Below, one piece after another: positions 780-63,650 of a stretch of DNA of 64,000 bases. How positions within the stretch are numbered: the first letter of the stretch is position 1; every line of letters begins with the position of its first letter. The DNA is from Corythucha ciliata (Eukaryota > Arthropoda > Insecta > Hemiptera > Tingidae). Below the pieces are notes generated by a model, which saw nothing but the letters and a program-made list of their open reading frames with translations, did no database searches and was not told the origin of the DNA. The stretch covers positions 45,563,189 through 45,627,188 of the forward strand of contig CM075938.1 in NCBI GenBank assembly GCA_038030265.1. Direction: 5' to 3'. Made by a program: the position numbers and the translations under genes.

Positions 780-1260
780 TATTTTATTGGTGAGAAAATC
801 CGGGAAATTGGGGTTTTACAGAGCTAAAATCCGAATAATTTGGTTTTTGTGAAGAATTCAGCCCCACAAAATAGGATTTTCTAACCATGAAAATCTGAAA
901 AATTTGCTTTGAAGGCGCCAGATCCACAAAAACGGGCATTGAAAGATTCAAACATGCAAATGTGAAATTGGCGTATTTGAGCCAAACACCCGAAATGCTC
1001 TTTTGATATAGGCACTGCATCCATGCAATTTGGTTGCTAAAGTAGACCAAACCCGAGGAATCATTTTAAAAGAAGAGAAATCTGCCAAGTTGAGGCTTTT
1101 AAGGGCCAAATCCTGGAAGTTTGAATTTCAAAGGTCTAGCGAAATCGCGTTTTCGAATGAGGAAAACCTCGCGAAATTGTCTTTTGAAGAAGACAAAGAC
1201 ACGAAATTGGCTTATCGGTTTTAAACCAAGAGCCAAACCCATGGAACTTGTTTATCCTTT
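780..1260 (-). repeat. degenerate array, family B (reverse orientation)
   Basis: Imperfect units of about 30-38 bp repeat the pattern 'gag(c)caaaccc-gaaattgg-tttttt'. The same family recurs at 9185, 14650, 19290, 47580 and 49040. Units are strongly diverged, so frames through it are meaningless. Confidence 0.6.
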
Positions 1261-1351
1261 TCAAAAGGCTAATTTTGTGAAGTTGGTACAACGATGTGTC
1301 TGCTCTGTCAACTTTCTGCCAGAGTACTTCAGGGGTGTGTGGGAGAGGATG

Positions 1352-2000
1352 TAGGGCCATAGAGAGAACATTCAGGCCCATAGGGAACTGGGATGGACCT
1401 CAATGGGGCCTTTCATTGCCCTTCCCCGCCCACCACTGCAAAGTCACAGCAAGCTCCAACTATAAAAAACTCTAACCACAGTTGTTAGAACCTCCAACCA
1501 CAGTAACGTCCCAACCACAGACATGCTCCAAACCGTCATAAAGCCACAAAAACCCCACATAAAACCCTAACCACAGCAAAGATCCGACCACAGTCAAGGT
1601 CAAATTTTTAGACCAAATTTGGTTGCCCTAAGTCAAAAATTGCGACCGTGATCGTGCTAACAAGCGGGGGGTCATATATATATCAAATCGAACCAACCTC
1701 GGATTCGTGTTCTAGGGGGTTCGAAAGATCGAACTCATAGCAAGCCCAGCTACTAAAGGCTCTAATCACTGTTAGAACGTCCAACAACAACCACAGTAAC
1801 GTCCCAACCACATCAAAGCTCCAAACCACAGTAAAGCTCCAAACACAAAGAATACTCAACCGCAGCAAAGACCCAACCACAAAAAGCTCCGACCACGATC
1901 ACGAGAGCTTAAATCTCAGTAAAGCTTTCTTTTTCTTGATTTCTGAAATCGGGGTCCGGATAACGGACCCAGTGCCCTCTCTCCTCTATCAACAGGCCTG
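1352..2000 (+). mobile_element. hAT-like minisatellite element, copy A
   Basis: The 5' block (AGGGCCATAGAGAGAACATTC) matches the starts of the copies at 53174 and 54977. The centre is a diverged array of CCAACCACAGTAA/AGCTC-type units of about 17 bp, duplicated around 1430-1590 and 1735-1900. The 3' block (AGTAAAGC, a pyrimidine run, TTCTTGATTTCTGAAATC, then CCAGTGCCCT and CAGGCCTG) also matches the other two copies. An unrelated stretch at about 1600-1735 interrupts the array. Target duplications are not clear for this copy. No protein is encoded. Confidence 0.6.
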
Positions 2001-3020
2001 GATGGGTGAGAGCCACGTTGAGTTCAACCGATGAGACCCTTCGGGCTTGCTTTATCTCCCAAGAGGGCAATGCCGTCACCAGAACTCAGCCTTCTGTCGC
2101 CTTCTTTACAGTTTTTACGTCCCGCCAGCGTACCAGTTGTGGAGGTGTGGCAAGGATCCCCGCGAAATTCGATTTGGAATTGCAATAAAATCGGTCAAGT
2201 AAGCCAAGGAAATTCGGATACAGAAGTTGCAGGGTGGTGAGACTATGCCTACGGTCTCCATCTACTACAAGATTTGCGGCCAATGTTCAAAAAGTGTAAA
2301 CCTGCAATGGGTGCGTGACGATGATCGATGCGCCAGAGTCAAAGGCTGCGAAATTCGATTTTCAAGTAGCCGAATCCACTTTGCCATGCCGTCCAGTTTC
2401 ACAGTCAAGCGAGTCAGTGAGAAAAGTTGTCAATCTTGGTGGATAGTCACTCACAGAAAATGTTTCGGTGGCCGAAAAAACTCCGATTCGTGGTTTCTCG
2501 AGGCAACTTCGTGGTTCTAGGTGAGAAAAAGCACAAATTCATAGGTAGAAGTGAGAAAATGCGTAAATTCGCTGTTAAAATTGAAAAGTTTTGTTCTGAC
2601 AGCGGCCTGTCGGGAAAAGTGCATTTCATTCATGCGACAATCGAGTCAAACCTCATAAGTTAGAACGATATCAACCAACTATGAATGAAATTTAGGCCGG
2701 GATTTTTAATTGCAAGTAACTCCTCTAACAAGAGTCCACCTTCCCATATCGTTCCATTTTTCATTTTCATCATTTTATTGCCCCTCAGTTGGTCTGAAAC
2801 GTGAAAAAGAGTATCACAACCCATATGTGCGACATATGTGTGATGAAGCGCTAGTTCACGATAACATAAAAAACGCTTTGCAACTAAAATTTCGATAAAT
2901 GCGCTAATTCGTGGTTTTTCAATTCAATTTCATGTCCGAAATTGAGAAAAAGGTCAAATTTGCGGATAAAATCACAAAATAGTAAAAAGAAACTTGAATC
3001 ATGATAAAAATCATTGAAAG
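2001..3020. other. non-coding DNA with traces of family A repeats
   Basis: Family A-like units (gtgagaaaaagc / aaattc / taaaattgaaaa) are recognisable at about 2500-2600 and 2900-2990. The remainder has no ORF or structure I can support. Confidence 0.35.
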
Positions 3021-3153
3021 TCTCAGAAATTCCGTTAGGAAAATCCGTTATCAGTTTTTACCGGAGACGTTTTTACGGTTTTTTTTTTACCCATCAGGCA
3101 TTTTCTAAATCCGTCAGATCTGACGGGAAATCCGTCAAATTGACAACGCTGGG
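3021..3153 (+). repeat. dispersed repeat ending TGACAACGCTG, copy 1
   Basis: The stretch from TCAGAAATTC through TTTTCTAAATCCGTCAGATC to TGACAACGCTG aligns by eye with 19066-19174. Both end at ...CAACGCTG. It is an interspersed repeat with no visible coding capacity; the superfamily is not assigned. Confidence 0.5.
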
Positions 3154-7345: not shown

Positions 7346-7688
7346 CTAGAGGTCGATCAAACGGGCTGTAGATAGCGCTCTTATTATTCATCTCAAGGTT
7401 TGTACATGGGGAGGGTTAGTTTAAATTTAACAGGCTTCAGTGTGTTTGTTTATTGAATTTATCCAAGGAAGTGCTGGTATTTCAGAAGTTTTTACTTCTA
7501 GTGATTATTTTAGGCCAAAAATGGACCACTATTATGCGAACTCTGCTAAAAGTAACACCGGGAAAACGATCGGTTGAATAATCTTATCAAAACAGACTAC
7601 TCTGCATGAAATAAATTAAATGAACGTGACATCTTCCGGACGATGATGGAAGGGTATAGCCCAACACGGTTCGAGTTTCGAGAAAATA

Positions 7689-7766
7689 TGGGCTCCCCGG
7701 TGGGATTTGAACCCGCAACCTCTGGATTACTACTCCAGCACGCTACCAATTACGCCACGGTGACGC
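7689..7766 (-). tRNA. tRNA-Thr(AGT)-like SINE head, left arm
   Basis: On the minus strand the A box TGGCGTAATTGG, a CTGGA/TCCAG anticodon stem with loop GTAGTAA (anticodon AGT) and the B box GGTTCAAATCC are clear. The acceptor strands do not pair, so this is a SINE head or pseudo-tRNA, not a functional gene. Confidence 0.55.
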
Positions 7767-7802
7767 CTTTGGAAGTCGTACTGCGAGGGATCAGCTAAGC
7801 CG

Positions 7803-7863
7803 AACCCGTAGCGTGCTGGACTAGTAATCCAGAGGTTGCGGGTTCAAATCCCGCCGGGGAGCC
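7803..7863 (+). tRNA. tRNA-Thr(AGT)-like SINE head, right arm (5' incomplete)
   Basis: CTGGA-CTAGTAA-TCCAG forms an intact anticodon arm with anticodon AGT. GCGGG-TTCAAAT-CCCGC forms a perfect T arm, followed by CGGGGAGC-CCA. The acceptor 5' strand and most of the D arm are replaced by the linker, so it cannot fold as a tRNA. Confidence 0.55.
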
Positions 7864-8004
7864 CATTTTTTTCTCGAAACTCGAATCGTGTTGGGCTATG
7901 CCCTTCCATCGTCGTCCGGAAGATATCACTTTCATTTAACTTATTTAATTAAATACCGGCGACGACATCTTTCTTCATCTATCTATGAACTAGTCTACTC
8001 TGCA

Positions 8005-9180
8005 TCAAAAACTGCCGATTTTATCCCCCAAGTGGCGATTTTACTAAAAAAACATACGGTTTCTCGCAAAAGCCGCGTACGTGTTACTTCACCCTCCACC
8101 CAATCCACGCACACACGCCACTGAAGATGTCTTTAGAAAACTGGCTATTTTAACCTAAATCTTTTCAGTTTCATTTTTAAAAATCAATATTTTACACCCG
8201 AAACGACAGTTTCCCCCAAAATAGATATTTTACTCTGAAACTGACAATGTCACACTGCAATAAAGTTTTCACACAAAACGAATGATTTTAAGACAAAACC
8301 TGGAAAACGGGCGATTTCACCACAAAACTGACGAATTCTTCCCAAATGTGACGATTTTATATCAATGTAGACGATTTCATACCAAAGCTGACTTGTTGCC
8401 CCACAACTAAAGACGTCACTACAAAACTGGCGATTTTATTCCAAATCCAAATTTCACGGTTTAACATCAGAAATGATGTTTTACTCCGAAGTAGATTATT
8501 TTACCTCAAAACTGACGATAATCCAAACCTGAAGCGTTCTTCTCGATATTTCTCCACAAAAACCGGCAATTTTGCCCAAAAGACTGACTGTTTTAATCGC
8601 GAAACTTACGATTTCATCCCAAAAACTTACCTAAACAGACGATTTTACACCTTAAAACTAGCAGTTCTTCCCCTCCAAATTATTTTACGTCAAAAATGGT
8701 TATTCGTAAAAACTGACAATATCACAGCAAGACTGGTGTTATTCCGTAAACAGATTAGTTTTTTTCCCTCAAAAATATGATTTTATCCTGAAACTGGAGG
8801 TTTTACCTCAAAACCGGCAGTTGTACCATGACGAGTTTTAACATAAATTTAAAGTTTTTACCCTAACTGTCCCGGAAACTGAAAACTGATGTTTTCACTG
8901 CAGAACTGGCGATTTCACCTTGAAAACAAATTTAGTGGATTTACCCCGAATCTGGCGATTTTAGCTCAAAATGGCTATTTAATCGCGAGATAGGCCAGGG
9001 GTTGACCGCATGAGTCCAAAGTTCTGTTTATCCTTAAGCTGAGCTTAAGAGTTTATACTCGAATCCAAATTTGCATACAAAAACGTTTACAACGCTTAAA
9101 CGGACATTGTCGATTCGGCCCTTAAGCGCCAAAATGGCACAGAAATGGAGATGGGCCAAAAACTGGCAATTTTACCAGTT
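8005..9180 (+). repeat. degenerate array, family D
   Basis: Dozens of imperfect 20-30 bp units follow 'AAAACTGACGATTTTACCCC'. Unit length and sequence vary strongly, which indicates an old array. It begins right after the SINE and runs to the family B block at 9185. Confidence 0.65.
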
Positions 9181-9184: not shown

Positions 9185-9660
9185 ATTATTATTTTATTTT
9201 TGAAGAGGGTGGAAATGCAAAATTTGCGTTTTTGTGGGCAAAACCGATGAAATTGTTTTTTGGGGGAGAGCCAAACCCGCAAATTGGTTTTTCATATGCC
9301 AACCATGCGAAATTATCTTCATGAAATGAGCAAGACCCGTGAATAATAATGGTTTTTTTTGGGGCTATGGGACACTTAAGCTCTTCAAAGTGAGCAAACA
9401 CCGTGTAAGTTTTAATTTTGAAGACGTGAAACCCGTAAAGTTGGCTTTTTTATTAAGCCAACTCCACGAAATGGTTTTTTGAAGTGCCAAATCCGCAAAA
9501 TTTGAAATTTTGAACCTCGCGAAATTGGTCTTTTTAGTGGATCAACCCAGCGAAATTTGCTGTTCAGGGACTCAATCTTGCGAAACTCGATTGTTGAATG
9601 TGAAACCCGTGTGAGATTGGGTTCTGTGAGTGCCGAGAGTCTATGAAACTTGGGGTTTAC
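9185..9660 (-). repeat. degenerate array, family B (reverse orientation)
   Basis: Units of roughly 30-38 bp have the pattern 'gccaaacccgcaaattggttttt'. The array abuts family D on the left and, after a hAT-like end, family A on the right. Confidence 0.6.
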
Positions 9661-9700: not shown

Positions 9701-9759
9701 TCTCTAAAATCTAAATAAACGAGGAATATCATTTTTATACGTTTCGTTAAATAACGTAT

Positions 9760-10395
9760 TTTTCTCAATTTAAGCCACGAAGTTGCCTACCGAAACACCG
9801 TGGGTTGGAGTTTTCCAATTTTGTTTTAGATGCAAATGAGCGCCATTTCTCAGTTTCAGCCGCTAATTATTAGCGCATTTTTTTAATTTCATCAGCGAAT
9901 TAGCACATTTTCTCATTTAGCTGCGAACTTGAGCGCTTTTAATTATAATTATATTAGCCTCAAATCAGAGTTTATCGTCATTTTAATTGCAAATCAGCAC
10001 TTTTTCCAAATTTTAGCCACGAATTTGCGCTTTTTCTCAATTTAAGCCACGAAGTTGCCTTAAAAATCCTTGAGGCATCGAAATAAATTAACATTCTCTC
10101 AGTTTGAGAATGACTGCTCTTTCTTAATTTTTATCCATGAATTAGTCATTTTGCTCAATTTTATCCGCGAATTAGCGTTTTTCTCTATTTTAGCAGCGAA
10201 GTGGCGTTTTTTTTTGTTTTGCCCGCTAATTTACGCTTTTCTCTTTTTTACCAATGAATTTGCCTTTTTCTTCTCTATTTTACTCGGGGCTTTTTACTTT
10301 AATTCTTGCTGTTTATCAATTTTAGCAGCTAATTAGCGCACTTTTAAAATTCTATCCGCGAATTAACATTTTTATAAACTAGTCTTTCTCTCTAA
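9760..10395 (-). repeat. degenerate array, family A (reverse orientation)
   Basis: Units of about 31 bp follow 'TTTCTCAATTTTAGCCGCGA' plus ATTAGCG. This is the most abundant array family in the window, also at 13820, 18660, 25640, 27075, 33250 and 61925. Confidence 0.7.
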
Positions 10396-10402: not shown

Positions 10403-10750
10403 CAGGGGCCACACACGATCAAACATGCTTGACAAATATGTTTTGCTAGGTTCGCTTGTCAAGCATGTTTGACGTTTGACCTCACACCCACACGTTCAAA
10501 CCCGTCGTCAAGCTTCAACTTCAATTTTACAGACGAAATACCCTCTTTTCTTGATGGTTTGAAGGTTTGGTGGTTTTAAACTCACAGACACGATCAAATC
10601 TGTTTGTCAAACCTCATGTTTGCGAGCAAATTTTCTGGCAGCGACTGATAACCGTCAAACGTGATGTAAACCTTCAAACACCGTCAAACCTGCTTGTCAA
10701 GCGAGGTTGGCAAACCATTCTTGTCAAGCATGTTTGATCGTGTCTGGCCC
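10403..10750. mobile_element. TIR (MITE-like) element with internal CAAACATG repeats
   Basis: The left end GGGCCACACACGATCAAACA plus TGCTTGACAA is matched by the inverted right end TTGTCAAGCA plus TGTTTGATCGTGTCTGGCCC. The inverted repeat is about 30 bp with one clear mismatch. TGTCAAGCATGTTTGA-like words recur about seven times inside. The CAGGGGCC start resembles hAT termini. No target duplication is clear, and the element lies within a family A array that resumes to its right. Confidence 0.7.
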
Positions 10751-10869
10751 GCTTAATTTTACCCACGAATTAGCGTTACGTTTTTCTTATAATTCGACCC
10801 AGGAGTTAAAGCTCTTTCAATTTCAATAGCGAATGAGCGTCTTTTTCGAAGTGAGCGGCGCGGCGGCTG

Positions 10870-13745: not shown

Positions 13746-13819
13746 TTCAAGCACAGCAGACCGTTGCTATGCACACCCCCCTCACACCCTCAAGGAGCCG
13801 TCGTGTCGCCAGTGGCCCC

Positions 13820-14650
13820 TGTTGGGAGAAAAACGGTAATTCGCGGCTAAAACTGAGAAGCATGCTAATTTTAGAAAAAGTGCTCATTACAGCACCAAAA
13901 ATCATGACAAAAAAGTGAAAATTCGCTACAACTGGGAAAACTGGCTCATTCACGGCTAAAAGTGCAAAAAACTGCTTATAGTTCGCACACAAAATTAAGA
14001 TAAACCGGTAGCTTACGTCTGGAATTAAAAAGAATTGCAAATTTGCAGCTAAAATTGAGATGAAGCACTAACTCATGGCTAAAAGAAGAAGAAAAACTAA
14101 CTAATTTGCCGCTAAAATGGGGAAAAAGCTCTAATTCACCTATCAAAAGTAAGAAAAAGCGTTTACTCGCGACAAAAGTTAAGAAAAACAGTAGCTTGAG
14201 ACTTAATTGGAGAAAAAACGCTAATTTGCGACTACAGGTGCAACAAGTTGCAAAGTCGCAGCTAGAAATAGGAAAAACTTTAATTCGAGCGGCCCCAATT
14301 TAGAAGAAGTACGAATTTGCAGCTAAAATGTAGAAAAAGGGCTAATTCATGGCTAAATGTGAAAAGAAAAAGAAGTAAAACTACTCGTGGCTAAAAGAAA
14401 GAAAAGGCTCTAATTTGCCGATACAAAATGAGCTAATTTACGGCCAAAGTTGAGAAAGACGCTAATTTGTGGATTAATATGTGAAAAAGCGCTCATTCGC
14501 AGGTAAAATTGAGAACATTTTGAAAACCTTTGATTCGTGGATAATGTTGAGACAAAACGGAAATACGCGCCTGAAAGTGAAAAAAAATTGAAAATTTGTT
14601 GCTTCTGATTTGAAAAACGTTAATTCGCGGCTAAAATTGTGAGAGAGAAA
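13820..14650 (+). repeat. degenerate array, family A
   Basis: Units of about 31 bp follow 'GCTAATTCGCGGCTAAAATT' plus GAGAAAAA. Orientation is opposite to the blocks at 9760 and 61925. Confidence 0.7.
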
Positions 14651-15250
14651 AAAAAGGGGGGTCTCATGGAGATTTCCAATTTCATGGAGAAATTGTTTTC
14701 TTGGTGTGCCAACTTGATGCTTTCATAGCGGGTGAAATTGATTTTTTTAGTGAGAAAAGCCCACTGAATGTGTTTTTTTAGGGAGTGAAACCCTCAAAAA
14801 TGCCTTATGTGAGCAAAACCTCCGAAATGGCTTGGTTTAGTGAGAAAATCTTAACGAAATTGCTATTTCAAGTCAGAGAACCCTGCGAATTGCTTTTATG
14901 GCACGAGAAATGGCCTCACTAGCAAGTGAACTTGATTTATTTTTTTTAACGAGAAAACTCCACGAACTAGTTCTTTTTAATTGCGTAACCGAGTCAATGG
15001 TTTTTTGTGTAAAAAACCCTCGAAATTGATTTTTTCAGTGAGCGAAACCCGTTTGTTTTTTTAGTGACCGATATTCCCGAAATTGATTTTCGAGTGAGCA
15101 AAAGCAGCAAAATTGGTTTTGGATTATCCTTTTGTAGTATTGAGTAAAACCATCGAAATTACTTTTTTCGTGAGGAAATTCAGTGAAAAGTGCTTTTCAG
15201 TGCGGAAAACTCGCAGATTTCCACAGCGAGCCAACCAACTCGGGTTCTAT
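14650..15250 (-). repeat. degenerate array, family B (reverse orientation)
   Basis: Units follow 'gagaaaaccc-cgaaattg-tttttt-agt' with strong drift. The array directly abuts family A on the left and the TIR element at 15255 on the right. Confidence 0.6.
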
Positions 15251-15254: not shown

Positions 15255-16049
15255 GCCTGTACACACGGAGACTTTTCTGTCATGACATCCATGCCATGGC
15301 AGAAAAGTCTTCGTGTGAACACGAAAAAGGTAAGACATTTGATGTTATACCATATATGTCATAACAAATTTTGATAATTCCACGGTGACATCTTTCTAGA
15401 CAGAAATGTCTAGTAACCTTCCCTTTTACCCCAACTTTCATGCTCAAGCCGAAGGGTAGGGAATAGGGATTATTAAAACCGTGGAAGTGAGCTTGTTAAC
15501 TTGTTGATGCTGTTGAGCGATCTGTTGTTTCAATGTTCAAGTGAAGTTTGGAAAAAAAATGGATTGGATTCGTGAGACAGTAGCTCTGTTCGTTGACTGT
15601 TTCCAGTATTGCAAATAAAACAGAATAAACAAAACACACCAATTTGATTGGTTAAAATCACGCTTCCCCATGACAACTGCCAATTTTACTGTACTGGCAG
15701 CAGCCACCGAACAAAGCTAGTAATGGCATCACTCATCATAGAGTATGAGTTGCGTGAGTGCCTTTACCTGTACTAAACAAGTTTGTAATAAAACAGCTAG
15801 ATGTACCTATTCATTAAATTGCATTAAGAATTTCACGAAACAGCTACTCTTATACCGTCTATTTGTTCATCCTAATCTTTTATTTTGGACAGTCTTTATT
15901 GTGAAGAGCAGAAGTGGCTGCCGTGGTGCCAGCTACCGCTTTCAACACCACCAAATAAATTGGAATGATGAAATTGTCCTAGTAGGAAACACGATTTTAG
16001 CAAACTACTCCACCAAAACTATTGAACTTTGGAGTACACGAGGAGCGGA

Positions 16050-19065: not shown

Positions 19066-19174
19066 GTGGTTCAGAAATTCTGTTACAAAACCCCGTTCGA
19101 CAGTTTTTTTCCTGTCAGCCATTTTCGAAATCTGTCAGATTTGACGGAAAATCCATCAAACTGGCAACGCTGTA
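19066..19174 (+). repeat. dispersed repeat ending TGGCAACGCTG, copy 2
   Basis: This is the counterpart of 3021-3153. Both share TTCAGAAATTC, the TTTTC...AAATC(C/T)GTCAGAT segment and a ...CAACGCTG end. Confidence 0.5.
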
Positions 19175-41676: not shown

Positions 41677-41679
41677 TGG

Positions 41680-47579: not shown

Positions 47580-48800
47580 CTTTTTGTTTCGCAGCAATGA
47601 ACCACTTCCTTGGATTTCGCACACTATAAAACACCAAACACCAATTTCACGCCCACTGCTTTTTATACGTGCTAAACCCCCAATTCCGCGGGATGGGTTT
47701 TGCTCAGTGAAAAATCATTTTAGCAGCTCTGTCTAAAAAAAAAAATCAATTTCTCATTTTTTGATACACAATACACAAATTGTCCTGATTTTTCTTTCCA
47801 GTAAATTGACCATTTTCCCGGATCTGGTTCGGTGAACAATAAATTTCTCGGTTTTCGCTATTTAGAAAAACCATTCTGCGGATTTTTCATAACAAACAAA
47901 AATGCGCGTCAGGCTCACAAAAGAAATTTTGCGGGGTGCCCAAATTCATAGACCATTTTCACTGATTTGGTTCACTAAAAAACCAATTTCTTGGAGTTCA
48001 CTCCCTAAAATGTTTTGGGCCTAAAAAAAAAAAACAATATTTCCCTGGATCTCGCGATCTCTCTGTCTGAAAAACAACAAAATTCTGCATATTTTCCCCA
48101 GATTTTCACTTGTTAGGTTCCTAGAAATAAAATTCGCTTGTTTTTTGTTCCTGGCAAACCAATTTCGCTGGGTGATTTAATTCCGAGACTGATTTTTCTG
48201 ATTTTTCGCTCTAAAACCCAATTTTTTCAGGTTTGACCGACTAAAACACCAATTTAACGGATTTCGCTGGCTACAAAGCGAATTTTGCGGATTTTTCTTT
48301 CAAAAGAAATACTTTTTCCGGATCGGGCGCTCTGAATAATAAATTACTTGGATTTTGCTCACTGAAAAACCAATTTCTGGAATATCTGTTGCTAGCAAAC
48401 CAATTTCTACGAGGGCCAAATTAAGAGACCGATTACGCTGACTTTGCGCTCTAAAAATTGAGTTTAGCTGGTTTGACGCACTAAATGCCATATTTTGCGG
48501 ATTTCGCTCACTAAAAAAAAAAGAACAATTTCGAGGATTTTGCGCGCTGTCAAACTATTTTTGCGGGTGCGGTCTCAGTAAAAATATACATTTTCGGTGG
48601 TACACTCGCTAAAAATCAATTTTTGCGGGCCTTGCTCTCTATCTTTAAAAAAAGAATTTTCGAGAGCTCACCTAGACGCAATTTTGTGGGTTCCGGCTTG
48701 CTGCAAACCCCGGAGGAGTTTCCTATTTCCGAAACGTTGCAATTGCGTTGATTTTGCACACATATGGACCCATTTCGTGATTCTGGCTCATTAAAAACGC
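47580..48800 (+). repeat. degenerate array, family B
   Basis: Units of about 35-40 bp follow 'CGGATTTCGCTCACTAAAAA' plus CCAATTT. This is one of the longest family B blocks and lies within the presumed intron. Confidence 0.7.
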
Positions 48801-49039
48801 CAATTTCCCGGGTTGTGATCGCTATAGCGAACCGCATTATCGCCCGCATTGCGTGGTGAGCTGGAACATGGCGCACACTCGGCAGGCGTTCCTGGCGGTG
48901 TGCGTACCACGTAGTCCGGATGCGAAATGCACGCGGCTGGATCCGGGGAATTAGAGTGACCAAATGTGAAAGTCGTTTTCGAGGACGCCTGGTTAGAAAA
49001 GTTGGGCAATAGTAGGATCCCTAAATACAAGTTAACAAC
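48801..49039. other. non-repetitive GC-richer segment
   Basis: CGAACCGCATTATCGCCCGC through CGTAGTCCGGATGCGAAATG is clearly more GC-rich than its surroundings and separates two family B blocks of opposite orientation. No gene is recognised. Confidence 0.3.
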
Positions 49040-49865
49040 GACTAATCATTGATCAGTTTGACATTAAAGATGTCCGCGTTACAGTCAGGAAATCAGTTTT
49101 GAAAGAACAAAAACTACGTAACCGAGGTTTGAAAGATACAAAACTATTAAATGATGGTTTTTGAATGAGCCAACTCGGCGAATTAGATTTTGAAAGACCC
49201 AAAGCCCGCAAAACTTAAGTTTGTGAAAGCCAAAATGACAAAATTTTGTGTTTGGTCGAGCCAAATCCATGAATTTGCTGTTTGCATGAATTGATGAAAT
49301 TTAGGTTTGAAATACTCCAAAATCGGGAATTTGAATTTTCAAAGAGCCAAATTCGTTTTATGAATCAGCAAAACGTGCGAAACTGATTTCATAGAGATCT
49401 AAAGCATCAAAATTTTGGTTTTAAACGCATGATACTCAGCGAAATTGGGGTACGAAATAACAAAAATTAGAGGAATTTGCTTTTTAAGGTTTCAAAATGG
49501 AATCGTTTGTTCGTGGAAGAGTGAAAAGCTCCATCCAAAATGTTAATTGATCGCGCCAAAATTATAAAATTGTTTTTATTCGTTCGTTTTTTGTGAAATT
49601 AGTTTTTTAATTAAGCAATCCTGCAAAACTGATTATGTAAAGGGGGAAAAAACCTAGAAATTTGGTTTTTGAATAGGGGAAAATCCAGAAATTGGGTTTC
49701 AAAGGACCCAAGTCCATTAAATTGGGTTCTGAAAGAGTGAAAGTCCGTAAAATTGGTTTCTGAAGGAGAAAATTCCACGAAATGAGCAAAACCCCGAAAT
49801 TGGGACTTGAACGAGATGAATCCACAAAATTTAGATTTGAATGAGTGAAAATTAGTGACATTGAC
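49040..49865 (-). repeat. degenerate array, family B (reverse orientation)
   Basis: Units follow 'GAAATTGGGTTTGAAAGAGC' plus CAAATCC. Orientation is opposite to the block at 47580, so the two form a large diverged inverted pair. Confidence 0.6.
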
Positions 49866-51274
49866 GTTTGGAAGAGTCAAAATGGCGAAATGTTGTTGCC
49901 AAACGCCCGCGGCTGGTTTTAAATCAGACTGTGAGTCTTATTTTGTGGTTCGTCGGTCCAATGTTTTCATGGGTAGTGGGGTGAATTTTGGACTTTTGTG
50001 TGAAATGGTGGCATGGCGACGGTGTGTGAAAGAGTTTCAGTGGCCGAAATCCCTATTTTGTTCGCAGAATGGACTTCAATTTCCGGAGGAAAGTGACAGG
50101 AGGATCGAAAATCCGGAATAGAAGGCCTCAAATCTACAGTTTTCCAGCAGAGATTTCATTTTTGACGGATAGTGACTGTTTCGGTGCAAATTCAGTTTCT
50201 GTTGACCGTAAATTGACGATTTCCAGTTCTGCATTTCCGAACTGCAGTTGGTGTATGTGAAATTTTCTCCAGTGAACCCACTCACCCCAAGACCATGGGC
50301 TGACTTCGCCCCTGCAAGGTACTCTGTTTCGTCCAAATTTGGCAATTTCAGCTAAAATTTAAATGAGTTCTGAGGTTATTTTAGGCAGCACCATTCTTGG
50401 GTTAATAATTACATATTCCTTTTCTTTAACCACCTACGGCGAAATGCCTAATTTTTTTTGCCTGCGTCGAGGCTCCGAAGCTCTTCTTTGGATTTCCGGG
50501 GTTATAATCGAATCCGCGACCACCGTCCCCGGAAAAATTCCTGCGACCCCAAAAAATGGTCCAGAGTGGTCCAGTCATCATCTTAAAGGTGTTGTTCACT
50601 ACAGACTCATGTAGACATTGTTTACTGAGTTTCTGCAGTGTTGGGCAGTGCAGGGTATTTTGGGCAGAGTAAACGTTTGAAATGATACTATCTTTAAACT
50701 TGAAAGTTTTCTCAATGCCACGAGTCCACACTTCTTCACCATCTCCTTTGATTGCGTCTTTTTCTTTACGACCAACTTTTATTATAAGACTGTTGAAATT
50801 ATTAGCAGCGAGGAAGACTCTCAAACAGAACTCTAGCTTCACCCTTTCCACAGTTTGCGCCGGCTATGAATATAAATACGTCTGTTATCTCCTCTCATCC
50901 ACTCTCCCTCTCGTGCACCTTTTCGACCACAGGGATTAATTCAAAACTTTACGTATAGCGTGTGCGCTGGCTCGGGGAGGATGGAACTTATTATGCAGTT
51001 CGGTGTGACAGAGGGGAATTTATTGGGAAGTTTTTTTTTGTTTTTTGTTTTTTTTTGTATGTGTGATACGGGAAAATAAATAATGTTATTCGACGCCTTC
51101 AAACGATATTCTGTCACTTTTTATTCTTGATATCGCGTCCCGATATCGTGAACGTCTGTGAAATTTCACACTGGGCCCTGAAGTTAATGTGGGAACACTA
51201 GCTCATGGTCTATCAGCTCTCCTCCTAAACAGTGAACGGGTGATGATAAATATGGTGGTAATCATTGTTTCTAG
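49866..51274. other. intron-like non-coding DNA
   Basis: A family-B-like fringe extends to about 50350. A 141-codon minus frame at 50426-50851 has no recognised domain. The segment ends in the acceptor TAATCATTGTTTCTAG of the exon at 51275. Confidence 0.35.
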
Positions 51275-53173: not shown

Positions 53174-53786
53174 CAGGACCGTGGAGAGAATATTCGAGCC
53201 CAGGAACAAAACTCATCAATGAGGCCCTTAACACAGTACAATGATCCCATAAGGCCAACCAAAGCCATGGTTCAACCTCAGTGACGCTGTAATTACAGTA
53301 GAATCTCCAACGACAGCAACGTCTCAAGCACATTGAAGGCCCAGCCACAGCCACAGAAAAGGTCCAACCACTGCAAAAGTCTAACCACAGCAAAGGTCCA
53401 ACCACAAGCAAGCTCAAACCACAGCAAAGGCCCAACTAGTGCAAAGGTCCAACCACAACCAAGCTCAAACCACGGCAAAGGCCCAACCATTGCAGAAGTC
53501 CAACCACAGCAAAGGTCCAACCACAGCAAAGGTCTCAACCACAGCAAAGGTCCAACCACTGCAAAGGTCCAACCATAGCAAAGGTCTAACCACAGCTAAG
53601 CCCCCAACCACAGTAAAAGCTCCAAACACAAAGAAGACCCAACCATTGCAAATCTCCAACCACAGTTGAGCTCCCAGTAAAGCTTTACCTTTTTTTCTTC
53701 CTTTTCTTGATTTTTGAAATCCGGGCCCCCAAGGAAAACCAGGCCCGGGGATAAAGGAGCCAGTGCCCTTCCCCTTGACAGGCCTG
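53174..53786 (+). mobile_element. hAT-like minisatellite element, copy B
   Basis: It begins CAGGACCGTGGAGAGAATAT and ends CCCCTTGACAGGCCTG, with conserved blocks as in copy C. The centre (about 53290-53665) is a 17-bp array, 'CCAACCACAGCAAAGGT', more homogeneous than in copies A and C. The flanking octamers CTAACTAC and CCGACTGC agree at only five of eight positions, a possible decayed target duplication. Open frames across the array (Gln/Ser/Asn or Trp/Leu-rich) are repeat artefacts. Confidence 0.7.
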
Positions 53787-54425
53787 CCGACTGCATTTCT
53801 CAATTATTGAGTATAGGCTGAGGGACTCGCAGGGGCGGCTTAATGAAACAAAAATGTGACGTTCCTGACGAAGGTCATGGGCCACGTTCACGCTCCCCTG
53901 GAAATCGCCCCCCCCCCCCCAGGTTGAGAATCATTGATTTAGTATCTACGACCAAGCACTCAAGCCTATGAATATATTCGACTGTAATTTCTTCGTATTT
54001 AGTACGGAAGCCTTTAGTTGTTTCCGTTTTTGTTCTTTGCCCCCCTCATTATGAATCCCGCTCTTCATAAATTGACTATAGCGCTGTTCAGTCTTCAACC
54101 GCAGCCGTCCGTGGCAGCACCGCAGCCTTCCGTGACACCTGTTCTTCGTAGTGGACTGTGCGGCGTCAGTTTTCCTTCTTTTCGACATCCGCATCGTTCG
54201 AATTTTTTATGTATAGAGAGCAACAGACGATAGCAAATTTTCTGGCTGCAATTTAGTTTTACTGCCATGTTCCCCTATAGGGAATGGAAGTATGGTGTTC
54301 ATGAAAAACCTCGGAAAGGTTTAAAAAAAGTGGTTTTCGGCATGCCGTCGGTCTGTCTTTGTACGGTGTAATACCTGACCAGGAAAACCGGTAATTTTCT
54401 AAAAGTGTCCGTGTAGCCATTTTTA
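53787..54425. other. non-coding DNA
   Basis: A C run lies at about 53908-53920. A short internal duplication (CCGCAGCC(G/T)TCCGTG) lies near 54100. No exon is supported. Confidence 0.3.
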
Positions 54426-54756
54426 GTCCGCGATTAGTCAGTTTGACCAATTTACGGACGCGAATAGTCAGTCACGCCATTTTTTAGGCGCAGGTACTGA
54501 CTTGTGGCCATTTTCAATACATGCATCGTCAGTTTGGCGATTTTTAGTGCTCTAATGGTCATTATAAGAGGTTGTCATTTTAAGAGCATTTCGCAGAGCA
54601 GTCGTCAGTTTAGGCACTTGAAAGGCGCGTATCGTCTGTATAACTGTTTTTACAGCGCATTGAGTCAGTTTCTTTAATTTTTGGGCGCGAAATGCCTTTC
54701 AAGTGAATTTATGAGCGTAAATTGTCAGTAAAGCCATCTTATTGGCACAAATGTCC
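54426..54756 (+). repeat. degenerate array, family C
   Basis: Units follow 'GCGCGAATAGTCAGTTTGGC' plus CATTTTTAG. Confidence 0.6.
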
Positions 54757-54976: not shown

Positions 54977-55970
54977 CAGGGTCGTGGAGGGAATATTCGG
55001 GCTCGAGTATGATACTCAATGGAGCCCTTTCAAAGCACCCCCCCCCCCCCGCTCAACAGTTTTGGTGTCTTGCTATTAGTTGACTTATATTTTAAACCCC
55101 AAAAAAGTCCCACCCACAGAAACTCTCAAGACCATAGCAAAACTCCAAAATAAAGCAGAGTTCCAAACCACTGCAAAGTTGCAACCACAACGATGCCCCA
55201 AAAGCTATGTCTCCACTTGTGCCTTTTCGCGTGCGTCAGAAGCATGCGTCATAGCGCATGGTGAGTTGAACGTGAGGAATGCGCTATTGCATGCCTCAAA
55301 AAGCTGGAAGGATATCAGAAATTGTGTGCATAGCTCAGACACATGCGTTGTTGAAAGATGAAGTGAAAGTTGAAAAGGCGTGTTGAATTGAAAGAGGAAG
55401 ACGAAAGCGCACAAGTGGAGGCATAGATAAACAGAGCTAAGCTTCAGCCATTTCAAAGTAACAAAACCAGCATCACCGTAAAAGACTGACCTCAGAAAAC
55501 TTCCAAACAGAAAAAGCTCCTACCACAGTAATGCCAAAACCACGGAAAAACTCCAAACAAAGGCAAAGCTCCGAACCACAGCAAAGCTCCAAACCACAGC
55601 AAAGCCCCAAACCGCAGTAGTAAAACTCTATCTACGAAAAAGGCCCAACCACAAAAAGCTCTAACCACAGTAAAGCCCAAACCACAACAAAGCCCCAACC
55701 AAAGTAAAGTTCCAGCCACGGTTAAGCTTCAACCACGGCGCATCAAAGCTCAAAAATTGGCCTACCACCACGAAAAGCTCCAACCATGAAGAAGGCCAAA
55801 CCACAGCAAAGCTCCTATACCTCAGTAGACCATCACCCACCGTAAAGCGTTCCTTTTTTTCTTATTTTTCTTGTCTTTCCTGCATGATTTCCGAAATCCG
55901 GGCCTCCAAGGAAGGCCGGCCTCGAGGGCAACAGAGCCAGGCTCCCCCCTCCCTTATCACGACTGGCCTG
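54977..55970 (+). mobile_element. hAT-like minisatellite element, copy C, with 8-bp target duplication
   Basis: The element runs from CAGGGTCGTGGAGGGAATAT to ATCACGACTGGCCTG and is bounded on both sides by CGTAATTG (54969-54976 and 55971-55978), an exact 8-bp target duplication. Eight-base duplications and CAGGG-type ends are hallmarks of hAT transposons. The ends are weakly inverted (CAGG...TCGTG). The interior is a diverged CCACAGCAAAGCTCCAA array with no transposase. The 228-bp-type MITE at 55203-55428 is nested in it. Confidence 0.8.
55203..55428. mobile_element. 226-bp MITE, copy 2 (nested)
   Basis: This is a full-length relative of 22511-22738 in the same orientation, about 32.7 kb away. 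Its left TIR is intact (AAGCTATGTCTCCACTTGTG) and the right TIR has changes (CAAGTGGAGGCATAGATA). It inserted into the hAT-like copy C. Confidence 0.8.
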
Positions 55971-56089: not shown

Positions 56090-56535
56090 TACAGCCAAGG
56101 CCAGTTTAGCCGCTATTAAGGTGCATTTAGTTATTTTTGCCTTTTCTATGGCGTGCGTAGCTAGTTTGACAATGTTTAGGGCCTAATTGGTCAGAATGGA
56201 TATTTTTATGGCATAAATAGTGGCCATGACTAATTCTGGGAAGCGTATCGCGTTTAATGGGCGTTAAAATAGTGATTTTCTCCATACTTAGTGCGTTAAT
56301 AGACCGTCAATCCATTTATAGGGCACGATTGGTCAGTTTGGCTATTCTATTTTTATGGCGTGAATTGCCAGTTTTCTATTTATACATTATACGGCACATA
56401 TTTTATCGCCACATTTAGCGATTTTGAAAGCGCTCATAGCCAGTATAACCATTTTCGGACGCTAATAGCCAGTTTTGGCAAGTTTAGGGTTTATATTGTC
56501 ATTTTTAACATTTCTAGTAGACCAAAAAAAGTCGA
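56090..56535 (+). repeat. degenerate array, family C
   Basis: Units such as 'GGGCACGATTGGTCAGTTTG' plus GCTATT continue the family C pattern with strong drift. Confidence 0.55.
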
Positions 56536-60370: not shown

Positions 60371-61055
60371 ATAAGGCATTCCAAGTAATTAAAAATTATT
60401 TGAGTAGTACATTAGGTTTTTATTTATGGCCGACTAGTTTCGGAGTAGCAGCACTCCATTTTTGAGGCCGAAACAACTAACAAGGAGACATCATAACAAT
60501 CAGTAAGAATTCTCAACAATTATTAAAATCTAGCTTAATGTTTACTCACATCTCTTTGTCAAACGTCTCACTCAAAATTCCTAAAAATCCTGGCGACGAA
60601 TGTACAAGGAAACTTGTTTCTGTACAAAATGATTTAAACCCTTTTTTTAATCTTTCAAGACGTAGAGCTACTCCCCCTCAACCCACTCCCATATCTGCTT
60701 TTCCCACCGCTGCCCTTATACATTGCCAAAACGTTCTTATACGGTTCTACCCCAACACTATCCAACTGAAAATTGACAGTTTTTCCCCCCAAATTTATGT
60801 GTAATTTCTCTAAGACTTTTAATTTTTCGCAGTTGTTCTCCCGATCCAATATACTAACGTCTTTAAAATTAAAAATATGCCCGGTTTTGTTATGATGTTC
60901 ACTAAGCCCAGTATTATTTTTTCTATATGAAAATGGAGTGCTGCTACTCCGAAACTAGTCGGCCATAATTAAAAACCGAATGTACTACTCAAATAATTTT
61001 TAATTACTTGCAATTAATAACATTCAAGAAACTCTTAAAAATAAGGCATTCCATT
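60371..61055 (-). mobile_element. Penelope-like element fragment with inverted ends
   Basis: Segments of about 85 bp at 60385-60470 and 60933-61018 are inverted copies of each other (TACTCAAATAATTTTTAATT and TAGTCGGCCATAA parts). The tract between encodes the tail of a Penelope-like endonuclease on the minus strand. AAATAAGGCATTCCA occurs just outside both ends (near 60370 and 61040), a likely 15-bp target duplication. A 5'-truncated copy with an inverted terminal segment is a common product of Penelope transposition. Confidence 0.75.
60655..60932 (-). pseudogene. Penelope-like GIY-YIG endonuclease C-terminal fragment
   Basis: The minus frame reads NTGLSEHHNKTGHIFNFKDV followed by SILDRENNCEKLKVLEKLHI. 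The pattern (G)LSEH-x-x-x-T-GH-x-F-x-F-x-x-V-x-IL(D)-x-E-x-x-x-x-x-x-x-x-E-x-x-x-I is the conserved tail of the GIY-YIG endonuclease joined to Penelope-type reverse transcriptases, which nicks the target DNA. The reverse transcriptase and the GIY-YIG start are absent: the frame begins right at the inverted end segment. A short tail without recognised motifs (VNFQLDSVGVEPYKN) follows before the stop. Confidence 0.75.
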
Positions 61056-61753
61056 TTACGCGTCCTCCTGAACTTTTTGAAACTTGGAAGAAAAATCAAG
61101 TCGCTGCTAAAATTAATCGGTGATCCGCCAAGTTCCGGTATACGGATCTTTTATGTGAAATTTGGAGCTTTGTTCGGTCGGATTTAGTAGTACCCTAGCG
61201 CCCCCCTCCCCGGTGGCCCCGATGCCCTGGTCATTTGGCTAGAAAAGGCCTCAACAGCGTTGAGAGACCTACCGCTCGAGTTGCTATAATTGCTATACCG
61301 TCAAGATGAACATGGACCCATGGACAGCGCTCTCTCATTCGCTCTAGTTGAAACTCCTCCTCCCTCTTTTGAAACCAAAGTGGTTTCAAAGATTAGATAA
61401 ATTTATCAAGGTGTACTTTTCAAGCCGTGGTCCCATGGGAAAGGTTAAGGTAAAGTAGTCAGAAGGGCTCATCTCGCGAGGGCGAGGTCCATGTTTAACT
61501 TGACGAGCTATAGGTTGGGCTATTTCTGAGGCTAGCTGTTGAGGTGAAGCACAAAACCTTAATTTCTGTAAACGCGAGTATTATAACGATACCCCCCCTC
61601 CCTCTCTGCTGGTATAATGACCTCCCTGAGTCAACAGACAAACAATAGCTTGAAGTATGAGAAAGAAAACAGAAGATTCGCGGGAATCCCAAGGGATGGC
61701 TTCAGTTAACGCACCCCCCCCCCCCATGACGGGAACGACTGTTTCTGCGCAGT
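61056..61753. other. non-coding DNA
   Basis: No gene is recognised. The stretch ends in C-rich runs (61590-61610 and 61713-61727) before a tRNA-like piece. Confidence 0.3.
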
Positions 61754-61835
61754 GGCAGCCTTATAGTGTAATGGGCAATAGCTGGATTCGAACCCAGGCC
61801 CGATGGGTTGCGAAGCGAGCATTGTATCCATCTTG
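61754..61835 (-). tRNA. tRNA-like repeat, copy 1
   Basis: The minus strand shows ATGGATACAATGCTCGCTTC then CCTGGGTTCGAATCCAGC, a perfect B box (GGTTCGAATCC) in a T-arm hairpin, then TATTGCCCATTACACTATAA. The acceptor stem does not pair. It matches 63383-63475 until GGCTGC, where homology stops. It is best read as a tRNA-derived SINE or pseudo-tRNA. Confidence 0.55.
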
Positions 61836-61924
61836 TATAGATCTAGTATTTTATCTTTGGAAGGGTTCCACCATAAATCTGATTTAGGTACTAATTCTTT
61901 TTCTTCTGAGTTTTGAGCCACACA

Positions 61925-63650
61925 ATCGCTGCGAATAGGCGTTTTTTTTTCAATTTTTGTCGCGAATTACTTCACAATTTTATCCGCGAATTACCGCGTT
62001 TCCTCGTTTTTAGGCGTGAATTAGCAGATTTTCCTACATTGATCCGCTATTTATCGGTTTTCCCAGTTTCAGCAGCGACAGAGTGTCAACTTAAGCCACG
62101 AATTTTCTCAATTTTAACAGCGAATGAGCTCTTTATCTAAATATGTGATTTTTAGTATTTTTCTTCATCATGCGGATTAGCGTTTTATCTCCATTTCCGC
62201 GTTTCCTCAATTTTAGCCTAGAATTAGCGGATTTCTTCAAATTGTTCCGCGAATTAGCGCATTTCCTCAAATTGTTTTTTTGTTTTGTTTTTATTTTAGC
62301 TGGGAATTATTTCTGAACTTTAGCCGTGAATCACCTGCCTTGATTCACCCTCGAATCACTGCTTTCACCCGATTTCATCTCTGAAATTGAGAATTTTCAC
62401 AACACCCATGAATTAGCGCTTTTCTCCATTTTAGCACTTTTTATTTGCTTAAAACAATGTGCCGTGAATTAGCGCTATTTTTTTTTATCCGCGAATTATT
62501 TTCCCAGTTTTAGCGGCGGATTATTTCTTAATTTTGTGTAGCCGTGAATCACCGTATTCCTCAATCTTAGCTGTAAATTAGCGCGCTATCTCAAATTGAT
62601 CCGCGAATTAGCTGAAATTCTCCATTTTTAGCGATTAATATGCGTTTTTTGCCAATACTATGTCCACAATTTTCAGATTTCTCTCCATTTTTGCTGCGAA
62701 TGAGCGTTTTGAATTAATTGTTGATGGCAATTAGCGTTTTGTCTCAGTTGTATAGCCCAGAATTAGGGGGTTTCATGGTTTTATCACATGTATCCATGAA
62801 TTAGCGTTTTGCTTCAATTCTCCTTAGCCCAGTTTTTCTCTACTTTTAGCCGTGAATTAGCACTATTTCTCAAATTGATCCGTCTTTCGCCACTCTTTAG
62901 TTGAGCATTTTATTTAAATTTTAGGCGGGACTCAGATTATTTCCGTTTTAGCCGCGAGGTGGTTTTATTAACGTTAGCCGTGAATTAGCGATTTTTTCAC
63001 TTATATCCATGTGAATTAGCTCATTTTCTCAATTTCAGTCATAGACACTAATTTATAAGAGCATTTTCTTTTCTATTTTTTAGCTGCGAATTTATGCTTT
63101 TTCTTGATATTAGACGAATTTGCCTTCAGAAACCGCAAAGTTTAACTTTTCCTCAATTGTAACCTAAAATTAACGCTCTTAACCATTATTAGTCGTGGAT
63201 TGGCGCTATTTCTCTTTCAGTCGCGTATTACAGTTTTTCACTTTTTTGACGCGAATTTTCATTCCATGCCATACCCTGAGAATCCATTAGCTGTGCACTT
63301 CACACCGTACTACGCGGGCGTTCCGGTCGATACGCGTTTTGTCATACGCACACCGCCGCGCCGTGAACGCCCACATGAAGCCGCAGCCTTATAGTGTAAT
63401 AGGCAATAGCTGGATTCGAACCCAGGCCCGCTGGGTTGCGAAGCGAGCATTGTATCCATTACATCATCGAGACGCGCTTTTTTTTTAAACTTTGATTTTG
63501 CGCTCTTTCTTAATTTTAATCGTGGACTGGCCTCAAGAGCATTACACCAGCGATTTTTGTAAATTTCATCGCAAATCATTGATTTTTTCTTAATTTGAGT
63601 CTTGAAGTTGCTTCGAAAAACGCAATTACTCAATTTCAGCAACGAATATA
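61925..63650 (-). repeat. degenerate array, family A (reverse orientation)
   Basis: This is the longest array in the window. Units of about 31 bp follow 'CTCAATTTTAGCCGTGAATT' plus AGCG. A tRNA-like repeat is embedded at 63383-63475. Confidence 0.75.
63383..63475 (-). tRNA. tRNA-like repeat, copy 2
   Basis: This is nearly identical to 61754-61835 over the shared part and longer at the 5' side (GCGTCTCGATGATGTAATGG). B box GGTTCGAATCC is intact; the acceptor and anticodon stems are poor. It sits in the family A array. Confidence 0.55.

Follow-up and report, generated by a model that had tools for sequence, protein, structure and literature searches.

Decayed, dispersed arrays of short tandem repeats in a 64-kb window of the Corythucha ciliata genome

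Dispersed minisatellite arrays are an already known kind of repeat. In Drosophila, the arms of the FB element carry repeats with lengths of 10, 20, and 31 bp. Here, we describe arrays of 17- to 30-bp units in a window of 64,000 bp (the whole stretch of DNA analysed), which we consider to be probably relics of dispersed minisatellite families that decayed mostly by ordinary mutation in place. No title or abstract opening among the literature matches listed described these repeats. Among the closest described systems is Cg_HINE, a Helentron-type element of the Pacific oyster with satellite-like arrays, consensus monomers of 138–181 bp, and a within-cluster diversity of 8.5–21% (PMC7492417).

Repeat families in the window

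A joint wraparound profile search at 25 bits found five families, with units of 30 bp (A, B, and C), 20 bp (D), and 17 bp (E), whose 39 segments covered 13,467 of the 64,000 bp (Table 1): 15 segments and 4,559 bp for A, 10 and 4,053 for B, 7 and 2,217 for C, 3 and 1,250 for D, and 4 and 1,388 for E. Families A–D had been proposed in an earlier sequence-only reading as ~30-bp arrays filling more than 10 kb; they were recovered at or near the places where it had seen them, on both strands and far above chance, and measured 12,079 bp, with the ~30-bp period holding for A, B, and C and replaced by 20 bp in D. Family E is an additional family without significant likeness to A–D. The real profiles found 0–2 segments in each of eight dinucleotide shuffles, and profiles retrained on eight shuffles found 0–1 segments (69 and 72 bp, at 38 and 36 bits); with fewer than 40 bits each, 8 of the 39 real segments are individually not secure. 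Profiles built from one array recovered all remaining arrays of at least 60 bits (7/7 in A, 6/6 in B, 4/4 in C, and 3/3 in E). Independently of any profile, lag 30 was the top autocorrelation in many 300-bp windows (37–51% identity), as were lag 20 at 8.1–9.0 kb and lag 17 at 53.3–53.9 and 55.5–56.0 kb.

Tandem Repeats Finder (match 2, mismatch 5, indel 7) picked up parts of several arrays, which amount to some 840 bp out of the A–D total of 12,079 bp, and far more array sequence under looser scoring. If the window is representative of the genome, decayed minisatellite would account for about one fifth of the whole, most of it overlooked by standard tandem-repeat searches. Weak hits beyond the called arrays at 16 bits showed only a modest surplus over expectation (A 32 vs 17.3, B 32 vs 19.5, C 21 vs 15.8, D 26 vs 12.7, and E 13 vs 11.7), and decayed array as the bulk of the window was therefore rejected.

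The units stand head to tail with a common consensus above chance, as in dispersed minisatellite arrays, and arrays of the same family occur at several separate places within the 64-kb window, which supports the earlier description of them as drifted arrays of old repeat families. The blocks are not all independent: two A arrays (25651–25954 and 27102–27490) are parts of one tandem duplication, and a single C array broken by two insertions apparently accounts for the pieces at 34038, 41717, and 43128. An apparent grading of A into C near 33790 was not borne out: at 25 bits, A(+) stops at 33823 and C(+) begins at 33985; at 12 bits, weak C pieces (12–18 bits) lie on both strands within and beyond the A array there; and the likeness between A and C is in opposite orientation, yet both arrays are on the forward strand. 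B does lie next to A or D as had been noticed, with gaps of 84–195 bp rather than direct contact. Among 25 hand-merged labels, there were 7 A–B adjacencies (p = 0.10) and 3 C–E adjacencies (p = 0.045).

Beyond the literature, no match was found for a 701-base piece of a 143-bp satellite in phages, for exact short patterns of A, E, and a 231-bp repeat (the array families being covered as exact A and E patterns only) or the Gypsy pol frame in viral contigs, or for the 231-bp repeat in prokaryote genome contigs.

Table 1. Repeat arrays and associated elements, by position in the window
Feature	Positions	Strand	Evidence
B array (subfamily B2), ~15 units	742–1213	-	174 bits; variant columns in common with 49088 array
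E array (17 bp), copy 1 of TE-like frame	1445–1926	+	profile search, flank comparison
A array remnants (2503–2587, 2877–2914, 2925–2982)	2503–2982	+	71, 31, 43 bits
D array, 20-bp period, ~48 units	8006–8995	+	292 bits; lag 20
B array (B1)	9191–9658	-	184 bits
A array, ~20 units; majority equals family consensus at 30/30 columns	9745–10373	-	276 bits
A remnant, past palindromic stretch 10406–10750	10752–10860	-	38 bits
A array, ~25 units; majority equals family consensus at 30/30 columns	13812–14647	+	40, 394 bits
B array (B1), 84 bp from A array	14732–15220	-	155, 53 bits
A array	18666–18839	+	110 bits
B array (B1), ending at tRNA-like foldback element	19305–19837	+	252 bits
A array, copy 1 of tandem duplication (24535–25985 / 25971–27438)	25651–25954	+	111 bits
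A array, copy 2 of the same duplication	27102–27490	+	173 bits
B remnant	27953–28049	+	77 bits
D remnant	28724–28830	+	44 bits
C remnant	29090–29174	-	43 bits
A array, most decayed (63% match in 33480–33823)	33243–33823	+	35, 98 bits
C array, left of Gypsy element	33985–34775	+	32, 368 bits
Ty3/Gypsy LTR element; LTRs 34776–35333, 41107–41685	34776–41685	-	LTR pair comparison
C array continuation with locally re-expanded variant C'	41717–41879	+	99 bits; TRF 41776–41874 (85% matches)
C array continuation past second insertion; C' copies 43129–43256	43128–43552	+	228 bits; TRF 88% matches
B array (B1), ~37 units	47600–48824	+	26, 425 bits
B array (B2), inverted next to B1 array, other subfamily	49088–49891	-	277 bits
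D remnant	50074–50226	-	39 bits
E array, TE-like frame copy 2	53251–53674	+	418 bits
C array	54402–54753	+	177 bits
E array, copy 3 first part, then 231-bp repeat (also at 22511–22741)	55095–55201	+	
E array, copy 3 second part	55474–55848	+	287 bits
C array	56099–56517	+	162 bits
A array, longest, ~44 units	61928–63263	-	376 bits
A remnants	63549–63647	-	40, 27 bits

Decay of the units

Units match their own consensus at 63–81% of positions, and units from different arrays are unlike at 44–48% of positions in A, B, and C. The sharing of off-consensus bases between neighbours, minus that between units of different arrays, was −0.005 ± 0.013 in A and 0.004 ± 0.017 in B (6 arrays each). Because a unit resembles its neighbours, on average, no more than it resembles members of different arrays, A and B appear to have decayed mostly independently, unit by unit; the greater likeness within than between arrays that marks concerted evolution was not found on average in these two families. 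Simulated A arrays with the observed match (~0.67) gave a neighbour excess of 0.001 without unit duplication, and of 0.014, 0.044 ± 0.019, and 0.061 at 0.1, 0.2, and 0.4 duplications per unit, respectively; on this simulation, A underwent at most about 0.1–0.2 duplications per unit since dispersal. Arrays were scanned singly in this final simulation, which replaced a first one without indels or an alignment step that overstated sensitivity and a second one with too little divergence (match 0.84); in an earlier scan of arrays joined by random spacers, alignments were suspected to bridge the spacers and lower the simulated match.

Single arrays lean either way. Neighbour sharing exceeded other-array sharing in the C array at 43128 (0.608 vs 0.438), the A array at 61928 (0.470 vs 0.416), and the B2 array at 49088 (0.470 vs 0.412), and fell below it in the A array at 33480 (0.345 vs 0.384) and the B array at 19305 (0.352 vs 0.411); in A, B, C, and E, sharing at distances above 3 within an array surpassed that between arrays by 0.02–0.05. 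The array majority differed from the family consensus, which was built from the very arrays compared with it, at 0–2 columns in 20 of the 23 arrays of six or more units. All comparisons come from one 64-kb window.

Two younger events serve for comparison. In the tandem duplication, the copied A array changed at the same rate as its flank (5/303 vs 21/1146 substitutions). A Gypsy element apparently inserted into a C array and serves as a time marker, since it sits within decayed array with LTRs that differ by 6 mismatches in 558 positions plus 1 gap event. The transition share was 0.41–0.50 in the arrays vs 15/32 in the duplication plus LTR pair; like the equal rate of array and flank, this is in keeping with neutral decay. 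Indel events per mismatch were 0.11–0.20 vs 8 per 32 in these young pairs.

We hypothesize that every array began as a block of similar units, brought in or amplified as such and already differing at some columns, and that mutation biased from G/C to A/T would then have worn the units to their present match. With less confidence, non-autonomous DNA transposons may have carried the blocks to their various places as cargo. In the main, the repeats are probably fossils of repeats that spread long ago, although part of the core is less decayed than expected. The near-independent decay of ~450 units in the window could inform on mutation spectrum and relative dating, and such scarcely homogenised arrays provide a counter-example to the usual view of satellite turnover.

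Kinship, core, and carriage of the arrays

A–D had been suggested to share one ancestor. The profiles of C and D do resemble each other (score 16.75, equalled by 0/300 dinucleotide-shuffled profiles), and the scores of the other pairs were equalled by 9/300 (A–B), 14/300 (A–C), 14/300 (A–D), 26/300 (B–C), and 18/300 (B–D) shuffles. The dinucleotide null (A–C z 1.9) replaced a free permutation of columns (A–C z 4.1), which breaks A/T runs. Since the marginal A–B, A–C, and A–D values are not significant over 20 comparisons, a single ancestor of all four is unproven; judged from the profiles, common ancestry appears clear for C and D only. That one old satellite diversified into all four families is nevertheless a possibility, if a doubtful one: a profile from a single C array yields four matches to A arrays, spread over three loci (25–33 bits), and one to the D array (37 bits), all in the expected orientation, but a B-trained profile matches one A array both ways (26 and 32 bits), as composition would give. 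The master repeats would comprise A, B with subfamilies B1 and B2, and C with D, not clearly one lineage. The B2 array at 49088 is off the family consensus at columns 22 (T 19, C 4) and 24 (C 17, A 5), where the array at 47695 keeps it.

The core described earlier as preserved is so in its A/T part (AATT in A, AATTT in B, and AAT in C) and not in CGCG. The CGCG columns were no better matched than other G/C columns, and the observed difference was reached by 79/100, 72/100, and 98/100 neutral simulations in A, B, and C, respectively; neither comparison gave a sign of selection on CGCG. The A/T core exceeded other A/T columns by 0.096 in A (simulated 0.002 ± 0.025), 0.173 in B (0.030 ± 0.021), and 0.097 in C (−0.033 ± 0.034), mean surpluses reached by 0/100 neutral simulations in each family; with the median, 5/100 reached it in B, and 1/100 once columns below 0.6 were dropped. 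The surplus was positive in 6/6 A arrays (two being duplicates), 6/6 B arrays, and 3/4 C arrays. Non-core A/T columns were also more spread than simulated (0/100 in each of A, B, and C). Uniform neutral decay from identical founders is therefore too simple. Because the non-core columns are uneven, the better-kept A/T core may reflect variation among the founders or an effect of mutation context; weak constraint is a further possible cause.

A/T tracts in the consensus units are spaced by about 10 bp (dinucleotide-shuffle p = 0.0195 in A, 0.0705 in B, 0.0875 in C, and 0.016 in D), which points weakly to phased DNA, another earlier suggestion. Lag-10 self-likeness was found in A (p = 0.048) and not in B, C, or D, and decamer ancestry of the units was rejected because the signal is confined to A; RNA-type folding of consensus trimers was unexceptional (z −1.7 to 1.3). 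Weak selection retaining part of the core, such as a helically phased A/T tract or a bound site, is in our view unlikely: the A/T surplus and tract spacing agree with it, but CGCG lacks such an effect, the unevenness of the non-core columns leads back to founder variation or context-dependent mutation, the duplicated array changed at the flank rate (on few events), and the indel frequency of the arrays compared with the young pairs also speaks against it.

Evidence for a carrier comes from E. Four of the six same-side flank pairs scored 24–44 vs a null maximum of 20 (1,404 shuffled pairs); the left flanks of copies 1 and 2 scored 19, and the right flanks of copies 1 and 3 were not among the matches listed. 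The E arrays thus partly share left and right flanks in the manner of HINE-like transposon-borne arrays, and the most direct reading of the three copies is that they would be transposon cargo. The same may apply, with less confidence, to A–D, whose flanks are too old to show it. Among the best 45 A–D flank pairs (overlapping DNA aside), those scoring above 20 gave no family frame, flanks at ~50% identity being undetectable: D8006/B19305 (94) shares a tRNA foldback, A61928/A63549 (75) a 77-bp tRNA-like repeat, and A2503/B19305 (47) a 69-bp repeat at 84%; C43128/C56099 scored 25 (T-rich), 33243 or 33985 with A63549 scored 21, and adjacent A arrays paired in inverted orientation scored 25–50. No recognised transposon end was found at any A–D array in the window, and no target-site duplication was established. 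The terminus-like motif GGGGCAATTGCCCC had 11 matches vs 2.07 expected, 8 of them inside a palindromic satellite at 20.4–21.8 kb, and GTGGCGTAGCCAGG had 1 vs 1.61 expected.

A fuller scenario, which we regard as speculative and rather improbable, is that a mobile carrier, active in a single burst or a few, seeded a probably holocentric (hemipteran) genome with very many short arrays whose 20- and 30-bp units are helically phased and which were hardly homogenised afterwards; the units would act as approximately independent clocks, weak constraint would slow the decay of the AATT tract of the core, and elsewhere in the genome the carrier would persist, as would master arrays of greater homogeneity.

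That the arrays derive from foldback (FB/Galileo-like) transposons, whose arms consist of short tandem repeats, is very unlikely. Two long B arrays do face each other (47600–48824 and 49088–49891), and FB arms have 10-, 20-, and 31-bp repeats, but the facing arrays are B1 and B2 (differing at columns 22 and 24) rather than two inverted arms of one repeat, the ground on which foldback arms were rejected here, and there is no other close facing pair of large same-family arrays among the 39 segments. Likewise very unlikely is ordinary satellite turnover by unequal exchange inside each array, which fits the local re-expansion of C' (41776–41874 and 43129–43256, 85–88% matches) and the neighbour likeness in C at 43128 and, more weakly, A at 61928, but not the lack of average neighbour likeness in A and B, given the excess that 0.2 duplications per unit would already yield.

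Relation to described systems

The preferred reading, decayed relics of dispersed minisatellite families, finds partial parallels in several systems. FB arms resemble these arrays in repeat length and differ in their inverted-arm structure, which was not seen here. The Tetris foldback element of Drosophila virilis is similar in that transposon-internal tandem repeats (TIR-220) build satellite-like arrays, but its ~220-bp repeats lie in inverted arms, whereas the facing B arrays belong to different subfamilies (PMC4079207). Cg_HINE shares short dispersed tandem arrays, several monomer families, and shared flanks, with E the resembling family, and exceptionally has two families consecutively, which we count as a likeness; the likeness concerns the arrays and flanks, and monomers of 138–181 bp contrast with our 17- to 30-bp units and their 44–48% between-array difference in A, B, and C (PMC7492417). 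Dispersed satellite DNA, including that of holocentric species, likewise forms short arrays along chromosome arms that are often associated with transposons; compared with such satellites generally, the arrays described here stand apart in their very short units, strong decay, and, in A and B, little homogenisation (PMC10048060).

Probable decayed minisatellite families

Short tandem arrays were identified by searching with wraparound profiles, for which the motifs of the sequence-only reading served as seeds, at periods of 30 bp (families A, B, and C) and 20 bp (D), together with an extra 17-bp motif (E), and the five profiles were trained jointly on both strands. The resulting consensus units were AATTCGCGGCTAAAATTGAGAAAAAgCGCT (A), CCAATTTCGCGGaTTTgGCTCacTAAAAAa (B), CCATTTTTAGGGCGCGAATaGTCAGTTTaG (C), AAAACTGACGATTTTACCcC (D), and AACCACAGcAAAGcTCC (E). 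The window held 39 segments scoring at least 25 bits, which totaled 13,467 bp (A, 4,559; B, 4,053; C, 2,217; D, 1,250; E, 1,388), compared with 0–2 segments in eight dinucleotide shuffles of the window searched with the same profiles and 0–1 with retraining. Training on a single array recovered all other arrays scoring 60 bits or more for A (7/7), B (6/6), C (4/4), and E (3/3), while shuffled controls (10 per profile) gave 0–1 matches each; this recovery test was not fully blind, because the seeds were picked after inspecting several arrays, and D fell outside it as no second D array reached 60 bits. The proposal that A–D are real repeat families was borne out by the shuffles and, for A, B, and C, by the single-array recovery, and the A–E arrays are best read as decayed, dispersed minisatellites, a known kind of repeat.

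On average, units of A and B decayed nearly independently of one another. Unit statistics were taken from ~450 units in the 25 segments of at least 60 bits (the 14 weaker segments being excluded), and units matched their consensus at 63–76% in A–D and 71–81% in E. Identity between A units was 0.543 for neighbors vs 0.543 for different arrays, and the sharing of off-consensus bases between units at most three apart, minus that with other arrays, was −0.005 ± 0.013 in A (6 arrays), 0.004 ± 0.017 in B (6 arrays), and 0.036 ± 0.046 in C (4 arrays). Single arrays, named here by family and start position, went either way (C 43128, +0.17; A 61928, +0.05; B 49088, +0.06; B 19305, −0.06; A 33480, −0.04), and sharing within an array at distances above three exceeded that with other arrays by 0.02–0.05 in A, B, C, and E. 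When A arrays were simulated with indels, at a match of 0.67 vs the observed 0.70, the sharing excess was 0.001, 0.014, 0.044, and 0.061 at 0, 0.1, 0.2, and 0.4 duplications per unit, respectively; set against the observed excess, these values limit A turnover since dispersal to at most about 0.1–0.2 duplications per unit. Among 23 arrays with at least six units, the majority sequence differed from the family consensus at 0–2 columns in 20, and the most divergent were C 41717, a short re-expanded array (7 columns), B 742 (4), and B 49088 (3). Variant columns common to the minus-strand arrays B 742 and B 49088 mark a B2 subfamily, and the B 14732 majority had one strongly different column as well.

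Kinship among families and the proposed core

A common ancestor had been suggested for A–D, and in comparisons against 300 dinucleotide-shuffled profiles each this held clearly only for C and D, in opposite orientation (0/300 shuffles reached the score), which by eye have ~14 bp in common (AATCGTCAGTTTTG). The pairs A–B (+, 9/300), A–C (−, 14/300), A–D (−, 14/300), B–D (−, 18/300), and B–C (−, 26/300) were weak, and E showed no significant likeness to A–D, with at least 30/300 shuffles reaching the score in every comparison. Kinship of A and C is plausible, because a one-array C profile matched A arrays at 10120, 13924, 61985, and 63179 (25–33 bits), all in the expected orientation. A one-array C profile also matched the D array at 8595 (37 bits), and the B profile gave matches in both orientations to the A array near 10 kb. 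The 10-bp power of consensus A/T content was higher than in dinucleotide shuffles (p = 0.0195 in A, 0.0705 in B, 0.0875 in C, and 0.016 in D), which hints that founder units carried tracts in helical phase.

The stretch AATTT...CGCG(A/G)ATT had been put forward as a preserved core of A, B, and C, and its two parts behaved differently. Match at CpG sites (those holding the CGCG core, plus one further CpG in A), other G/C sites, and A/T sites was 63.1%, 61.6%, and 75.1% in A; 57.8%, 59.8%, and 72.2% in B; 63.2%, 70.7%, and 72.8% in C; and 60.0%, 60.6%, and 73.8% in D, so the CGCG part was no better kept than other G/C. In contrast, the A/T part exceeded other A/T columns by 0.096 in A (AATT), 0.173 in B (AATTT), and 0.097 in C (AAT), compared with 0.002 ± 0.025, 0.030 ± 0.021, and −0.033 ± 0.034 in neutral simulations matched to the data in divergence, indels, and base spectrum (0/100 reaching the mean excess in each). 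Relative to the median of other columns, 0, 5, and 0 of 100 simulations reached the excess in A, B, and C, respectively, and 0, 1, and 0 when columns below 0.6 were dropped. Non-core A/T columns were also more widely spread than simulated in all three families (0/100 each), and columns B 21 (0.43) and C 19 (0.37) looked polymorphic. Given these uneven A/T columns and the better-kept AATT, non-uniform founders, context-dependent mutation, or weak constraint on the AATT tract could each explain the pattern. CpG observed/expected was 1.10 in arrays vs 0.95 elsewhere in the window, and transitions made up 0.55–0.65 of changes at CpG vs 0.40–0.52 at other G/C sites (A, B, C).

Neighboring elements and age order

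Features of the window associated with the arrays
Feature	Positions	Strand	Remarks
E arrays, 17 bp	1445-1926, 53251-53674, 55095-55848		Three copies with partly common flanks
Foldback element with tRNA-like arms	7606-7949 and 19836-20065		Adjoins D and B array
Tandem duplication, ~1.45 kb	24535-25985 / 25971-27438		96.9% identity (BLAST); contains A array
Ty3/Gypsy element	34776-41685	-	Near-identical LTRs; long open frames

The Ty3/Gypsy element carries protease and pol frames (Pfam) plus a frame of 588 aa, possibly gag. An alignment of its two LTRs shows 6 mismatches in 558 bases and a single gap event (95.3% by BLAST including the gap), and the element is probably a young insertion. C repeats flank it on both sides, with about 30 bp of other sequence before they resume on the right. 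When the flanks were joined with 4–6 bases trimmed, the C score spanned the joint (111.1–115.9 bits vs 102.7 and 57.5 apart), and when joined untrimmed it did not; such scores are compatible with, though not proof of, insertion into a pre-existing C array. As near-identical LTRs lie within an interrupted, decayed C array, the arrays look far older than the insertion. A second insertion, with poly-T on one side, separates copies of C′, a locally re-expanded C variant, at 41879 and 43128. For a Gypsy RNase H fragment at 29535-30167, 80% of the length aligned at 67% identity with a protein from Nesidiocoris tenuis, a mirid bug, and insects were among the few named matches of the large Gypsy pol; the host is likely, though not certainly, hemipteran.

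Mismatches in the tandem duplication fell at 5/303 array bases vs 21/1,146 flank bases, with four gap events in the array and three in the flank; one breakpoint adjoins the A array. The tRNA-like foldback element contains two Rfam tRNA matches (7692-7764 and 7805-7858). Other structures in the window included a 1.8-kb palindrome (20226-22024, 74% identity) containing ~143-bp tandem repeats, further foldback-type stretches of varied identity (10406-10750, 15258-15321, 31581-32088, and 60378-61014), a short repeat adjoining an A and a B array (3083-3151 / 19104-19172, 84% over 69 bp), and a 77-bp pair, tRNA-like by eye and 97% identical, with one member ahead of the longest A array region and the other inside it (61755-61831 / 63383-63459). 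A 231-bp repeat with inverted-looking ends (22511-22741 and 55202-55432, 92% identity) has one copy inside an E array.

Array flanks and comparison with known elements

Same-side flanks of the E arrays scored 24, 25, 31, and 44 in four of six pairs, compared with a null maximum of 20 over 1,404 shuffled pairs; one remaining pair scored 19, and the other was absent among the best 45 pairs listed. The left flanks have in common a block around GAGRGAAYATTC and TCAATG, and the right flanks TGATTT and GAAATC. No common flank frame was seen for A–D, for which flanks as aged as the arrays would be ~50% identical and beyond the reach of flank comparison. By analogy, the A–D arrays may have been dispersed as transposon cargo. 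The A–E families are absent from the repeats described in the available part of the N. tenuis genome paper, which covers mapped repeats and the holocentric chromosomes of Hemiptera. The E frame looks like a non-autonomous transposon that carries a minisatellite at its center, similar to oyster elements (PMC7492417) and Tetris (PMC4079207).
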